The notes under the pieces were generated by a model. It did not search any database. It was not told where the DNA came from and saw nothing but the letters and a program-made list of their open reading frames with translations. Position numbers and translations under genes: made by a program. From assembly GCF_003386795.1 (NCBI RefSeq), contig NZ_QTUC01000001.1, positions 4,154,001-4,218,000 on the forward strand: a stretch of 64,000 nt of DNA, read 5' to 3'. Each line of letters opens with the position of its first letter. Position 1 is the stretch's first letter. The DNA is from Thermasporomyces composti (lineage in GTDB: Bacteria > Actinomycetota > Actinomycetes > Propionibacteriales > Actinopolymorphaceae). Below are positions 19,805-34,511 of the stretch, in pieces.

Positions 19805-21013
19805 TCAGACCGCACCGATTCTCGCCGCCAGCGACACGACCTCGCCGACGACGATCACGGCGGGGGAGCGGACACCCTGGTGGGTCGCCTCGTCGGCGAT
19901 GGTGGCCAGCGTCGCGGTGATCGTGCGCTGGTCGGGCAGGGTGCCTCTCTCGATGATCGCCGTCGGCGTGTCGGGCGGCCGACCTGCCCGGAGCAGCGCC
20001 GTCGCGACCGTCTCGACGTGGGCGGCTCCCATGAGGACGACGAGGGTGCCCTCCTGAGCGGCGAGAGCCGACCAGTCCGGTCCGGCGCTGTCGCCGGCCC
20101 CGTGGGCGGAGACCACGGTGAACTGCCGTGCGAGTCCACGGTGGGTCACGGGGATGCCAGCGGCCTCGGGTACCGCGACGGCGCTGGTCACGCCCGGGAC
20201 GACGGTGCAGGGGACGCCCGCGGCGGCGCAGGCGATCGCCTCTTCCGCCCCACGACCGAAGACGAAGGGATCACCACCTTTGAGTCTGACCACGCGTTGC
20301 CCGGCACGGGCACGCGCGACGAGCAGCTCGTTGATCTCCTGCTGCGACAGCGTGTGGCCGTGCGGCCCCTTGCCGGCCTCGACCACCTCGACGTCGGGGT
20401 CGAGCTCGTCGAGCAGCGCCCTGGGGGCGAGTCGGTCGACGACCACGACGTCGGCCTCGGCGAGCAGGCGCCGGCCTCGGGTGGTGATGAGACCCGGGTC
20501 ACCTGGCCCTCCGCCGACGAGGGCGACGTGCCCGCCCGGCCGGTGTCGGCGCGTCGGCAGCTCGCCGGTCTGGAGTGACGCGGCGATCGCGCCGGTGATG
20601 GCCCGGGCACGGCGGGGGTCGCCGCCCGCGGAGACCGCCACGGTGATGTCGTCCACTCGGGCGACGGCGGGTGTCCACGCCGCCGACCGGGAGGCGTCGT
20701 CGGCTCGCACGCACCAGACACGGGCGTGCTCCGCGTCGGCGGCGACCTGGTCGTCGACCTCGGGGTGGCCGGTGGCCGTGTGCACCACCCAGGCGTCGTC
20801 GAGGTCAGCCCTGGCGTACTCCCTCGACCGCCAGGTCACCGCCTGGACGGCGGCCAGCTCGGCGAGCTCCTCACACAGCGTCGGAGCCACCACGAGGACG
20901 TCGGCCCCGGCGTCGAGGAGCCCACGGGCACGTCGAGCGGCGACCGGTCCACCTCCGACCACGACGGCCCGCCGACCGGCGAGGTCCAGCAGCAGGGGGT
21001 ATCGCGGAGTCAC
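19805..21013 (-). CDS. cobA: sirohaem synthase/uroporphyrinogen-III C-methyltransferase
   Basis: A fusion of 402 residues. The N-terminal CysG-B/Met8-like domain (about 1-150; GRRAVVVGGGPVAARRARGLL) would oxidise and chelate precorrin-2. The C-terminal methyltransferase (about 155-400) has VALVGGGPGDPGLITTRG, VRLKGGDPFVFGRGAEE and VVPGVTSAVAVPEAAGIPVTHRG. Together they make sirohaem for the sulfite reductase three genes upstream. The GTG start overlaps the cysH stop (GTGA), indicating translational coupling. Confidence 0.94.
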   Translation of the reverse strand: MTPRYPLLLDLAGRRAVVVGGGPVAARRARGLLDAGADVLVVAPTLCEELAELAAVQAVTWRSREYARADLDDAWVVHTATGHPEVDDQVAADAEHARVWCVRADDASRSAAWTPAVARVDDITVAVSAGGDPRRARAITGAIAASLQTGELPTRRHRPGGHVALVGGGPGDPGLITTRGRRLLAEADVVVVDRLAPRALLDELDPDVEVVEAGKGPHGHTLSQQEINELLVARARAGQRVVRLKGGDPFVFGRGAEEAIACAAAGVPCTVVPGVTSAVAVPEAAGIPVTHRGLARQFTVVSAHGAGDSAGPDWSALAAQEGTLVVLMGAAHVETVATALLRAGRPPDTPTAIIERGTLPDQRTITATLATIADEATHQGVRSPAVIVVGEVVSLAARIGAV

Positions 21014-21735
21014 GTATGGATACCGCACTCGGTCTTGGCGAGTCCTGGCCACCGGCCGGCCCGGGCGTCCTCGCCGTCCTCGACTCTGCGGGTGCAGGGC
21101 CAGCAGCCGATCGAGGGGTACCCGTCGTAGAGGAGCGGGTTGACCAGGAGGCCGTGCTCGGCGATGTAGGCGTCGACGTCGGCTTGGGTCCAGCGGGCCA
21201 ACGGAGCGATCTTGACCTTGCGCCGGCGAGCGTCCCAGGAGACCACGGGCGTGTTCGCGCGAGCGGGCGACTCCTCGCGGCGAATCCCCGTCGCCCACGC
21301 GTCGTAGGGGGCGAGCGCGCGCTCGAGCGGAGCCACCTTGCGGAGCTGGCAGCACAGGTCGGGGTTCCGACGGAACAGGTCCGGGCCCAGGGTCGCGTCC
21401 TGCTCGGCCACGGTCTGCCGGGGCCGTACCGTGACGAGTTTGATGGGCAAGGTCGCCGACGCCGCGTCCGCGGTACCGAGCGTCTCGGGGAAGTGGTAGC
21501 CGGTGTCGAGGAAGACGACCGTGATCCCAGGGACGACGGAGGACGCCAGGTGGGCCAACACCGTGTCCTGCATCGAGGAGGTGACGCAGAGGCGCTCACC
21601 GAACGTCTCGGCCGCCCACCGCACGATCTCGTGTGCCGTGGCGTCCTCCAGCTCCTGACCCGCGCGCTCGGCCAAAGCCCGCAGCGTGGCCTCATCACGC
21701 CCACCTTGCTGCGGCAACGTGGCGCACAGACTCAT
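21010..21735 (-). CDS. cysH: phosphoadenylyl/adenylyl-sulfate reductase
   Basis: CysH (241 residues) reduces adenylyl sulfate to sulfite with thioredoxin. The adjacent cysteines in DLCCQLRKVAPL and the pair in GCWPCTRR indicate a 4Fe-4S cluster and so the APS-type reductase. The catalytic cysteine is in the C-terminal ECGIHT. VTSSMQDTVLAHL, VFLDTGYHFPETL and GIRREESPAR are family segments. The ATG overlaps the stop of the small zinc-ribbon gene. No sulfate-activation genes (cysDN) follow, which is unusual for this operon type. Confidence 0.96.
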   Translation of the reverse strand: MSLCATLPQQGGRDEATLRALAERAGQELEDATAHEIVRWAAETFGERLCVTSSMQDTVLAHLASSVVPGITVVFLDTGYHFPETLGTADAASATLPIKLVTVRPRQTVAEQDATLGPDLFRRNPDLCCQLRKVAPLERALAPYDAWATGIRREESPARANTPVVSWDARRRKVKIAPLARWTQADVDAYIAEHGLLVNPLLYDGYPSIGCWPCTRRVEDGEDARAGRWPGLAKTECGIHT

Positions 21736-21878
21736 GACCGAACTCCCAGTCCGATGAAGCGAAGCGAGAACACCCGCGTGCAGGCCCGGCAATGCCACGC
21801 GCCGTGGCGGTCCTCCGAGGGCCGCAGATCCTCGTCCCCGCAGTAGGGGCAGTAGAAGGGGGTGGCACGTTCGCTCAC
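21732..21878 (-). CDS. 48-residue zinc-ribbon protein
   Basis: A very small protein encoded between sulfite reductase and cysH, overlapping both (GTGA upstream, ATGA downstream). The protein has two CxxC pairs, FYCPYCGDEDL and WHCRACTRVFSL, predicted to bind zinc or an iron-sulfur centre. Overlap with both neighbours is strong evidence for translation and for a role tied to sulfur reduction, perhaps as an electron carrier or assembly factor. Similar short genes occur in sulfur operons of other actinomycetes, to my knowledge without an assigned activity. Confidence 0.85.
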   Translation of the reverse strand: MSERATPFYCPYCGDEDLRPSEDRHGAWHCRACTRVFSLRFIGLGVRS

Positions 21879-23575
21879 GTGAGCGCCTCCTCCGGAGCGC
21901 GCGTGACCCAGTGGGCGAATCGCTCGCCTGGCTCACGCTGGTCGAGGTAGCGGCGAACGACCCGCTCGACGTAGTCCGGAAGCTCGGCGGCGGTGACCTT
22001 GAGACCGCGCAGCTTGCGACCGAAGCCGGCGTCGACACCCAAGCCGCCACCGAGGTGCACCTGGAATCCCTCCACCTGACGGCCTTGCCGGTCGAGCACG
22101 ATCTGGCCCTTGAGGCCGATGTCAGCGACCTGGATACGGGCGCAGGAGTTGGGACAGCCGTTGACGTTGATGGTGATGGGGACGTCGAGCTCGGGTACGC
22201 GGCGTTCCAGCTCGTCGACGAGCCGCCGCGCGAGTGCCTTCGTCTCGACGATCGCGAGCTTGCAGTACTCGATCCCGGTGCAGGCCATCGTGTTCCGACG
22301 CCACACCGAGGGGCGCGCCTCGAGCCCAACGTCGGCGAGGGACGTCACCAACGACTCGACCTTGTCCTCCGCCACGTCGAGCACGAGCAGCTTCTGGTAG
22401 GGCGTCGTCCGGATCCGATCTGACCCGTGCGCGGCCACGATCTCGGCCACCTTGCCGAGCGTGCTCCCCGACACTCGGCCGGCCACGGGAGCGACCCCGA
22501 CGTAGTAGCGGCCGTCCTTCTGGCGATGGATCCCCACGTGGTCGCCTGGCACGGCTGGCGGCTCGGCCGCCGGACCGTCGAGCAGCCTGCGGTGGAGGTA
22601 CTCCTGCTCCATGACCTCCCGGAACTTGGCCAAGCCCCAGTCGGCGACGAGGAACTTCAGCCGGGCGCGATGTCGGAGCCGGCGGTAGCCGTAGTCCCGG
22701 AAGACGCTGGTGACCGCCCACCAGACCTCGGGTACCTCCTCCAGCGGCACGAAGGCGCCGAGCCGCTGGGCCAGCATGGGGTTGGTGGAGAGGCCGCCGC
22801 CGACCCACAGGTCGAACCCGGGACCGTGCTCAGGGTGCCGGACTCCGACGAAGGCCACGTCGTTGACCTCGGGGGCGACGTCGTGGAGCGGGTGGCCCGT
22901 GAGGGCGGTCTTGTACTTGCGCGGCAGGTTGGAGAACTCCGGGCTGCCGATGTAGCGGCGGACGATCTCGCGGACGGCCGGCGTGGGGTCGATGATCTCG
23001 TCGGCGGCGATGCCCGCGACCGGGCTGGCGATGATGACGCGTGGACAGTCACCACACGCTTCCTGGGTCTGCAAGCCGACCGCCTCCAGCCGCTCCCAGA
23101 TGGTGGGCACGTCCTCGATGCGCACCCAGTGCAGCTGGATGTTCTGCCGGTCGGTGAGGTCGGCGGTGTCGCGCGCGTAGGTCGTGGAGAGCTCGGCGAT
23201 GGTCCGCAGCTGCGCGACGTTGAGCTGACCTCCGTCGATCCGCACGCGCAGCATGAAGTAGCGGTCGTCGAGCTCCTCAGGCTCGAGCGTGGCGGTGCGG
23301 CCTCCGTCGATACCCGGTCGGCGCTGGGTGTACAGGCCCCACCAACGGAAACGACCGCGCAGATCGGCGGGGTCGATGGAGTCGAACCCCCGCTTGGCGT
23401 AGATGTTCTCGATGCGTGCCCGGACGTTGAGCGGGTCGTCGTCCTTCTTGATCTGCTCGTTCTTGTTCAGCGGCTCTCGATAGCCCAGGGCCCATTGACC
23501 TTCGCCGCGCTGGCGGCGCGGTGGTCGAACCGGGCGGCGGGCACGAGCGGGCGTGGTAGACGCCTGTGTGGCCAT
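21875..23575 (-). CDS. ferredoxin-type sulfite reductase
   Basis: This nitrite/sulfite reductase-family enzyme of 566 residues reduces sulfite to sulfide with electrons from ferredoxin. Two ferredoxin-like repeats (FMLRVRIDGGQLN, DHVGIHRQKDGRYYVGV) frame the cluster-binding motifs. The 4Fe-4S/sirohaem ligands are in ACTGIEYC and NGCPNSC. Tyr82 in GLYTQRR and the cysteines in ACGDCPRV are where a Tyr-Cys cross-link is described for the mycobacterial SirA; this supports sulfite rather than nitrite, as does the neighbouring cysH. The ATG at 23575 starts a basic N-terminal tail. Confidence 0.94.
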   Translation of the reverse strand: MATQASTTPARARRPVRPPRRQRGEGQWALGYREPLNKNEQIKKDDDPLNVRARIENIYAKRGFDSIDPADLRGRFRWWGLYTQRRPGIDGGRTATLEPEELDDRYFMLRVRIDGGQLNVAQLRTIAELSTTYARDTADLTDRQNIQLHWVRIEDVPTIWERLEAVGLQTQEACGDCPRVIIASPVAGIAADEIIDPTPAVREIVRRYIGSPEFSNLPRKYKTALTGHPLHDVAPEVNDVAFVGVRHPEHGPGFDLWVGGGLSTNPMLAQRLGAFVPLEEVPEVWWAVTSVFRDYGYRRLRHRARLKFLVADWGLAKFREVMEQEYLHRRLLDGPAAEPPAVPGDHVGIHRQKDGRYYVGVAPVAGRVSGSTLGKVAEIVAAHGSDRIRTTPYQKLLVLDVAEDKVESLVTSLADVGLEARPSVWRRNTMACTGIEYCKLAIVETKALARRLVDELERRVPELDVPITINVNGCPNSCARIQVADIGLKGQIVLDRQGRQVEGFQVHLGGGLGVDAGFGRKLRGLKVTAAELPDYVERVVRRYLDQREPGERFAHWVTRAPEEALT

Positions 23576-23711
23576 GTCGTTCCTTGGTCGGAGCAGTCCT
23601 TGGGCGAGCGGTCCTTCGTCGGAGCGGTCAAGCGACCGGGACGGATGACACGACGAGAAGACGGAGGCGGCGCGACCGAGCGCCCGACGGATCCTGGCGG
23701 GCAGGAGACGT

Positions 23712-23729
23712 GGGCGCGTCAGCGCGCCC
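23712..23729 (-). promoter_or_regulatory. hairpin overlapping the leader-peptide stop
   Basis: A 7-bp stem GGGCGCG/CGCGCCC with a 4-base loop contains the stop codon of the leader peptide. A ribosome stalled upstream or released at the stop would change whether it folds, so it may act as an attenuator for the sulfur operon. Confidence 0.45.
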
Positions 23730-23808
23730 CGAGACAGAGCATGCTGCGCATGCGACCGAGGTCGACGTGAAGCCGGGCCACGAGGAGGGGGGTCACCGGC
23801 GCTTCCAT
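23719..23808 (-). CDS. cysteine-type leader peptide of the sulfur operon
   Basis: A 29-residue peptide ending in RLHVDLGRMRSMLCLGAR. The RLHVDL core followed by a Ser-x-x-Cys is the pattern of the short leader peptides placed before sulfur-assimilation genes in actinomycetes. The ATG at 23808 has GAAGG close upstream; an in-frame GTG lies at 23796. The stop is 144 bases before the sulfite reductase start. The single Cys codon near the end is a plausible sensor of cysteinyl-tRNA supply. The role is inferred from position and pattern. Confidence 0.72.
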   Translation of the reverse strand: MEAPVTPLLVARLHVDLGRMRSMLCLGAR

Positions 23809-23967
23809 GGCCTTCAGCCTGCGTGTGATCGATGAGCCGTGCAAACGACGTGTTCGGGATCCGAGACAAAGTGTCCGATCTGCGACACCGCGGTCATGGG
23901 TGCGCGGAGCGACACCGCTCAGCACGGCGCAGGTTCGTACCGAACAGGCAAGGCCCCTGAACCAGCG
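23809..23967. other. gap between glyA terminator and sulfur operon
   Basis: This holds the presumed promoter of the sulfur operon on the minus strand. I cannot identify a clear -35/-10 pair or another gene in it. Confidence 0.4.
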
Positions 23968-23999
23968 CAGGGCCCTCGTGGGCGTCGACGAGGGCCCTG
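23968..23999 (-). terminator. glyA terminator
   Basis: A perfect 12-bp stem CAGGGCCCTCGT/ACGAGGGCCCTG with an 8-base loop lies 25 bases after the glyA stop. Confidence 0.8.
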
Positions 24000-24024
24000 G
24001 TTCGCGTGCGTCACCGCGACGGCG

Positions 24025-34425: not shown

Positions 34426-34440
34426 GTGTCGGGTCATTCG

Positions 34441-34511
34441 AGGTGGAGACGGGATTTGAACCCGTGTACACGGCTTTGCAGGCCGTTGCCTCGCCTCTCG
34501 GCCACTCCACC
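34441..34511 (-). tRNA. tRNA-Cys(GCA)
   Basis: Acceptor GGTGGAG/CTCCACC with discriminator T, anticodon loop CCTGCAAAG giving GCA, and T-loop GGTTCAAATCC. CCA is not encoded. It is the middle tRNA of the cluster. Confidence 0.95.

Follow-up and report, generated by a model that had tools for sequence, protein, structure and literature searches.

Textbook attenuators sense an amino acid by a run of its codons. In arrest peptides such as TnaC, translation stalls close to the leader end, at a defined distance after a fixed peptide motif, and a C-rich spacer follows. In Mycobacterium smegmatis, the leader Ms4527A is presumably itself located before sirA. Seliverstov et al. 2005 (PMC1262725) predicted leader peptides upstream of cys operons in actinobacteria; as described in the text of that paper, they are short open reading frames with runs of Cys codons (Mycobacterium, P. 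acnes, and B. longum) and without a terminator, and Rho was proposed to act at the mycobacterial ones. Poly-Cys leaders of mycobacteria respond to cysteine, as shown in M. smegmatis (Canestrari 2020, as reported in papers citing it). Furthermore, a published search of one Streptomyces genome lists eight leader peptides, none of them cysteine-dependent.

Here, we analyzed a 64,000-nt stretch of the Thermasporomyces composti genome (hereafter the window, whose positions are used throughout). A 29-codon frame with an ATG start and a stop codon runs from 23808 to 23719 on the reverse strand and encodes MEAPVTPLLVARLHVDLGRMRSMLCLGAR, and homologous leaders are present in relatives. Both the length of this frame and the presence of a single Cys codon had been claimed in a preliminary description of the locus, and both claims hold; the peptide end, given there as ...MLC, is in fact ...MLCLGAR (RLHVDLGRMRSMLCLGAR), with four codons 3' of the Cys codon. 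The sole Cys is codon 25, a TGT at 23736-23734 (reverse strand) followed by C, and it is the putative regulatory codon according to the UGU register found in other leaders. A degenerate DNA pattern for R.HxDL.R had a single occurrence in the window and none in 100 shuffles, which, together with the recurrence of the peptide before sirA in relatives, places the leader peptide beyond chance.

The leader stop is separated by 143 nt from the ATG of the next gene on the strand (at 23575), whose Shine-Dalgarno sequence, AAGGA, lies at 23581-23585 (reverse strand). This gene (21875-23575, reverse strand) encodes a ferredoxin-type sulfite/nitrite reductase with Pfam NIR_SIR and NIR_SIR_ferr domains, in line with the sulfite reductase named in the preliminary description. 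Its scores against the NCBIfam models of the sulfite/nitrite reductase family were all under the cut-offs, and it is called sirA, a sulfite and not a nitrite reductase, because of its operon neighbors. These are cysH, encoding phosphoadenylyl-sulfate reductase (21010-21714 in the stretch searched, reverse strand; PAPS_reduct; PRK02090 at 271.7 bits, cut-off 154), and a cysG-like siroheme synthase gene (20000-20989 in the stretch searched, reverse strand, the gene extending further; cobA_cysG_Cterm at 225 bits, cut-off 185; cysG_Nterm at 81.9 bits, cut-off 62.3). All three genes lie on the same strand and probably form one operon. The leader hence adjoins a cysteine-metabolism operon, a feature by which leaderless poly-Cys attenuators are recognized. 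Between sirA and cysH, a small Cys-rich frame (approximately 21740-21877, reverse strand; MSERATPFYCPYCGDEDL...) looks zinc-ribbon-like by eye.

The peptide is conserved at this place. We took the best 80 of 570 confirmed sirA relatives, a choice that tilts the set to near relatives and Streptomyces, and at 72 of the 80 loci found H[VIL]D[LMF] encoded in a small frame that lies 55-272 nt upstream. Seven of the remaining eight looked like misses at first sight and were rejected as such, all being motif variants (HVDY, HVDH, and FVDL; in L024, a variant without the second Arg). The other, L076, was excluded as its upstream sequence comprised only 110 nt. A matching leader thus precedes sirA in 79 of the 79 testable relatives among these best 80 of 570. 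Beyond this set, a profile built from 24 leaders matched in 120 of the 147 order-level genomes and in at least 24 of 296 genomes drawn across the phylum. The NCBIfam model NF042934 matched in at least 171 of 246 genomes of the class (at least 151 over the cut-off) and NF042936 in at least 118 of them (at least 14 over the cut-off); the phylum and class tallies are lower bounds, as the number of candidates scored in each genome was capped. None of 14 control genomes was matched by NF042934 at an E value of 0.001, and in the laxest own-genome search 10 of the 14 had some match, none over the cut-off. For parsing, the order pattern required Cys at +11 plus D and R/K in the motif, and the class pattern required D; 6 of 90 loci in the order set and 8 of 93 in the class set were dropped for not fitting. 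Codon choice was not demanded by any pattern and, in the sirA set, neither was Cys itself. Because the sequences are related, leader counts here and below are not independent events.

The window peptide belongs with the actinobacterial cysteine leaders, namely the NCBIfam cis_reg_atten family and Ms4527A. It shares with the leaderless poly-Cys leaders of the Ms4527A type (NF042936) the motif, which reads RRHVDFKRV..C in them, and the UGU register described below, and its promoter spacing would suit a leaderless start; the NF042936-type leaders that were fetched (L260-L272) all precede sirA-like genes as it does. Unlike them, it has one Cys, compared with three to six in their tails, and it scored 16.8 bits against NF042936 (leader_Ms4527A; cut-off 45). 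It also resembles NF042934, annotated as a putative leader peptide, which single-Cys leaders of Streptomyces sirA genes pass (L016, 32.9 bits), and scored 16.7 and 17.8 bits against that model (cut-off 27). The tract of several Cys codons that marks leaderless poly-Cys attenuators (Canestrari 2020) is absent from the window leader. Being below both NCBIfam cut-offs and devoid of a poly-Cys tract, it is a variant of actinobacterial cysteine leaders. The remark in the preliminary description that sensing with one Cys codon would differ from that of poly-Cys leaders was a good one, and one Cys is usual among sirA leaders (60 of 73 in the set of the best 80 of 570 relatives).

Further copies were found in the same genome. 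NF042934 recovered five other leaders, two over the cut-off and three under it, located before genes for an ABC permease (best models SaoP, TauC, and SsuC, all below cut-off), a rhodanese of the sulfurtransferase type, a flavin reductase, a DszC/SfnB-like oxidoreductase, and an SDF symporter. The last Cys codon of all five is UGU. The genome therefore holds at least five more leaders, mostly before sulfur-type genes, and these copies, together with the conservation before sirA, bear out the earlier assignment as a cysteine-type leader of a sulfur operon. We also annotated the gene that follows each of 85 parsed leaders, comprising these five, the window's own (L157), and leaders of other genomes (rough gene call; one representative per cluster, with singletons L286 and L297 left out). 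The next gene was sirA-like in 40 cases, DUF4395 in 13, a rhodanese in nine, cysteine synthase in seven, and an SDF symporter in three; CDO_I, sulfatase, and an NtaA/DmoA-type monooxygenase followed two leaders each, and there were seven singletons, adenylyl-sulfate kinase among them. Leaders with up to eight Cys residues precede the DUF4395 membrane protein at L288 and 12 related loci. At L276 and L277, the motif and UGU recur in a leader upstream of a gene of cysteine-dioxygenase type (CDO_I). Such a gene is a poor match for induction by cysteine shortage, unless its enzyme frees sulfur from other thiols.

One Cys codon of the leaders, 11 residues after the His of the motif RxHVDLxR, is nearly always UGU. 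Among 192 distinct leaders of all sets, from which the seven variant sirA leaders are left out, this position is TGT in 190, TGC in one, and not Cys in one. By set, TGT was found there in 72 of 73 sirA leaders (best 80 of 570 relatives), in all 84 leaders parsed from the order, and in all 73 distinct leaders of the class set that carry Cys at this position. Elsewhere in the same 192 leaders, Cys is encoded by 68 TGT and 103 TGC codons, and the sirA genes behind the leaders of the best 80 of 570 relatives use TGT for only 11 of 404 Cys codons (393 TGC). Three of the six Cys codons in the window's own sirA are TGT, which makes UGU less unusual in this genome than in related ones. The rule extends to poly-Cys leaders of the NF042936 type: in HVDFKRVCSCCCLP, TGT stands at +11 and the other Cys codons are of either kind, and single-Cys and poly-Cys leaders thus agree in having UGU at one fixed distance from the motif. 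Of 188 leaders, 184 have a pyrimidine directly after UGU, as against 109 of 404 cases after sirA Cys codons and 246 of 409 first bases of later leader codons. A pyrimidine 3' of a codon can weaken its reading. Synonymous choice amounted to 5.07 bits at the leader Cys codon, at most 1.94 bits at any other codon compared, and 0.08-0.22 bits at the H, V, D, and R codons of HVDLxR, indicating that what is conserved is the amino acids in the motif but the codon itself at the Cys. Deviations also occurred at motif codons -5 to -2 (1.0-1.7 bits) and at Ser +8 (1.0-1.9 bits when taken with those codons), where constraint at the RNA level may exist. A second tRNA-Cys isoacceptor reading UGU was considered and rejected: the 45 tRNA genes of the genome include one tRNA-Cys, with anticodon GCA, by which UGU must be wobble-read. 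Its gene is located at 34440-34511 (reverse strand) in a Gly-Cys-Val tRNA cluster, approximately 10.6 kb from the leader.

The start of the leader mRNA is suggested by promoter spacing. A candidate -10 element, CAGGCT (23816-23821, reverse strand), lies 7 nt before the leader ATG, and a candidate -35 element, TTTGCA (23840-23845, reverse strand), is located 18 nt before it; relatives share the T at -36 as well as the -35 block. With the candidate -10 element only 7 nt from the ATG, the leader mRNA is probably leaderless, beginning at or near that codon. In all 73 sirA leaders (best 80 of 570), the start is preceded at a distance of 6-7 nt by the end of an A....T hexamer (A at position 2, T at position 6), compared with a background of 746 of 2263 positions at four offsets (5-8 nt window). 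This count is the only independent test of the spacing, since starts in the order and class sets were picked by a -10 rule (found in 80 of 84 and 77 of 85, respectively). A strict sigma-70 promoter scan of the window region detected no promoter at the leader. Between glyA and the leader promoter, at approximately 23956-24000, there is a long GC-rich inverted repeat (CAGGGCCCTCGT...ACGAGGGCCCTG) without a T-run.

Taken together, these features make it likely, in our judgment, that the locus is a cis-acting cysteine leader in which ribosome stalling at a single UGU that is decoded weakly responds to cysteine, with probable help from the nascent chain. Transcription would start at or next to the leader ATG, and a ribosome would begin on the leaderless message, as the promoter spacing suggests. 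It would translate RxHVDLxR and reach UGU at codon 25, which the sole tRNA-Cys (GCA) would read by G-U wobble with a pyrimidine next; the codon may be kept precisely because it is hard to decode, and the nascent RxHVDLxR, at a fixed distance from it, may aid pausing. When Cys-tRNA is plentiful, the ribosome would pass UGU, terminate four codons on, and leave the leader, after which the bare C-rich spacer would let Rho end transcription, or the ribosome-binding site of sirA would stay closed. When Cys-tRNA is scarce, the ribosome would stay on UGU, covering the leader end together with the first part of the spacer, and expression of sirA-cysH-cysG would follow. TnaC and other arrest peptides resemble the window leader, with its predicted arrest, in their motif at a fixed distance and C-rich spacer, and TnaC senses free tryptophan, unlike the proposed cysteine leader. 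The preliminary description, whose observations were confirmed in part and whose interpretation was supported in part, had noted neither the probable leaderless start nor the choice of UGU nor the HVDLxR motif.

As the step that would turn stalling into expression in the window, Rho action and masking of the Shine-Dalgarno sequence are about as likely as each other. An intrinsic terminator after the leader, as in a classical transcription attenuator, was found at 0 of 73 sirA leaders (best 80 of 570), and no terminator-like site was found in the window. A known RNA family was rejected: at gathering score, Rfam riboswitch and leader families gave no match in the window, which yielded four tRNAs only. 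Rho-dependent attenuation of the E. coli tna type, in which a ribosome held near the leader end keeps Rho from a C-rich site in the spacer, can be entertained as possible, though we would not call it probable. The untranslated spacer (23586-23718, reverse strand) is C-rich and G-poor (C minus G of 0.165) and by composition is a candidate Rho-loading region. Besides the absence of terminators, an excess of C over G in the spacer of all 73 sirA leaders and the position of the leader Cys, 0-5 codons before the stop (both among the best 80 of 570 relatives), favor such shielding, as does the proposal of Rho for mycobacterial cys leaders in the text of Seliverstov 2005 (PMC1262725). The sirA spacer also has the highest C over G of 23 upstream regions in the window (rough gene call). 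Nevertheless, composition is weak evidence for a Rho site, and the next region reaches 0.135 compared with 0.143.

Translation attenuation of the mycobacterial type, in which RNA around the Cys codon pairs with the sirA Shine-Dalgarno sequence until a stalled ribosome frees it, appears rather unlikely. In its favor are 52 distinct Streptomyces-type loci, where the UGU segment pairs with the Shine-Dalgarno sequence at -11.6 kcal/mol, as against -8.5 for other segments, and a swap to UGC costs 1.65 on average. Exact complements also occur (TGTCCTT/AAGGACA in Kribbella-type loci and TGAGTCC/GGACTCA in L008), and the best complement lies at -3 to +15 from UGU in 34 of 127 distinct loci (19.0 expected). 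However, that count is dominated by Kribbella-type relatives, a similar excess appears at -30 to -12 (30 vs 17.6), and complements are no stronger than those to scrambled Shine-Dalgarno sequences (15.4 vs 15.9). In 20 loci other than Streptomyces-type ones, pairing of the UGU segment was no different (p 0.29); for the window, a UGC swap changes nothing, and the best complement is located 86 nt beyond UGU. In masked folding of the window, the sirA ribosome-binding site does not clearly open: its opening costs 4.6 kcal/mol, falling to 3.3-3.6 with a ribosome at Cys and standing at 4.7 with one at the stop. A ribosome at Cys eased opening by approximately 1 kcal/mol on average in 20 loci and hardly in 53, and there was nearly no opening in the Streptomyces set. 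From masked folding, duplex energies, and complement positions, Shine-Dalgarno masking is clade-dependent and not seen in the window, and we rejected it as a universal output; that UGU is kept only for such pairing is unsupported outside Streptomyces-type loci.

On the input side, the nascent peptide might sense another sulfur metabolite instead of the supply of Cys-tRNA. A plain codon sensor would not require so strict a motif at a constant distance, yet this explanation is improbable, as it accounts neither for Cys being the last fixed residue nor for the poly-Cys forms with the same motif.

The preliminary description had placed a hairpin at the stop codon. It is present as described, with a perfect 7-bp stem (GGGCGCG/CGCGCCC, 23729-23712, reverse strand) and the loop CTGA, which contains the stop TGA (23721-23719). 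In the window's family (eight genomes, all that matched), its stem has 6-8 bp in seven genomes and 5 bp in the eighth; one pair changes from G-C to A-T. A second short hairpin, GGCGC-TCGGTC-GCGCC (23669-23684, reverse strand), follows in the spacer; its five pairs are all kept in seven of the eight genomes and one is broken in the eighth, and it could compete with the first. In the alignment, a related sequence, GGGCGCGCGGTCG, is found in several other Propionibacteriales-type loci, and L007 has a 12-bp perfect hairpin 24-53 nt after the leader stop at the place of this shared element. Nevertheless, the idea that the stop-codon hairpin works in classical terminator/antiterminator attenuation is hardly plausible. 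No U-run follows it, an equally good stem arose in 8 of 100 shuffles of the region, and it is absent from the minimum-free-energy fold of the leader RNA, an ordinary fold (z -0.47). Stems of at least 6 bp around the stop are not enriched among 149 distinct leaders (14, vs 187 of 894 shifted control positions) and occur in 7 of 141 leaders outside the family. The hairpin is consistent in the window's family only and was rejected as a general element of the switch. The alignment of upstream regions that had been proposed as a check was run: the peptide is conserved before sirA, and the hairpin does not co-occur with it outside the family. Finally, amino-acid conservation would fit a functional small protein acting in trans, but the leaders occur in several copies per genome, all directly upstream of genes, and their UGU is constrained at the codon level, so that a role in trans is very improbable indeed.

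Returning to cysteine-responsive stalling at UGU, the kind of switch is known, and the UGU register, the following pyrimidine, and the motif kept at the amino-acid level are new as far as our literature search showed. In that search, for which most subscription papers were outside reach, neither the UGU register nor a single-Cys HVDL leader was found, and likewise neither the pyrimidine after UGU nor the amino-acid-level motif; UGU, motif, and register do not appear in the text of PMC1262725, figures aside. As a tentative proposal, the cysteine regulon of actinomycetes may be governed by one very large family of arrest-peptide attenuators, in which a tunnel-bound RxHVDLxR and a single UGU followed by a pyrimidine would form the sensor and the mycobacterial poly-Cys leaders would be an elaboration. 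No run of Cys codons would then be needed, as RxHVDLxR at its fixed distance would make a single weak UGU the sensor. One codon seems to be enough, with the rarer synonym, the next base, and the distance from the motif all kept across the whole class. This raises the question of whether a nascent chain and a weak codon can together make the ribosome an amino-acid sensor. If true, this would account for a sulfur regulon in bacteria including Streptomyces.
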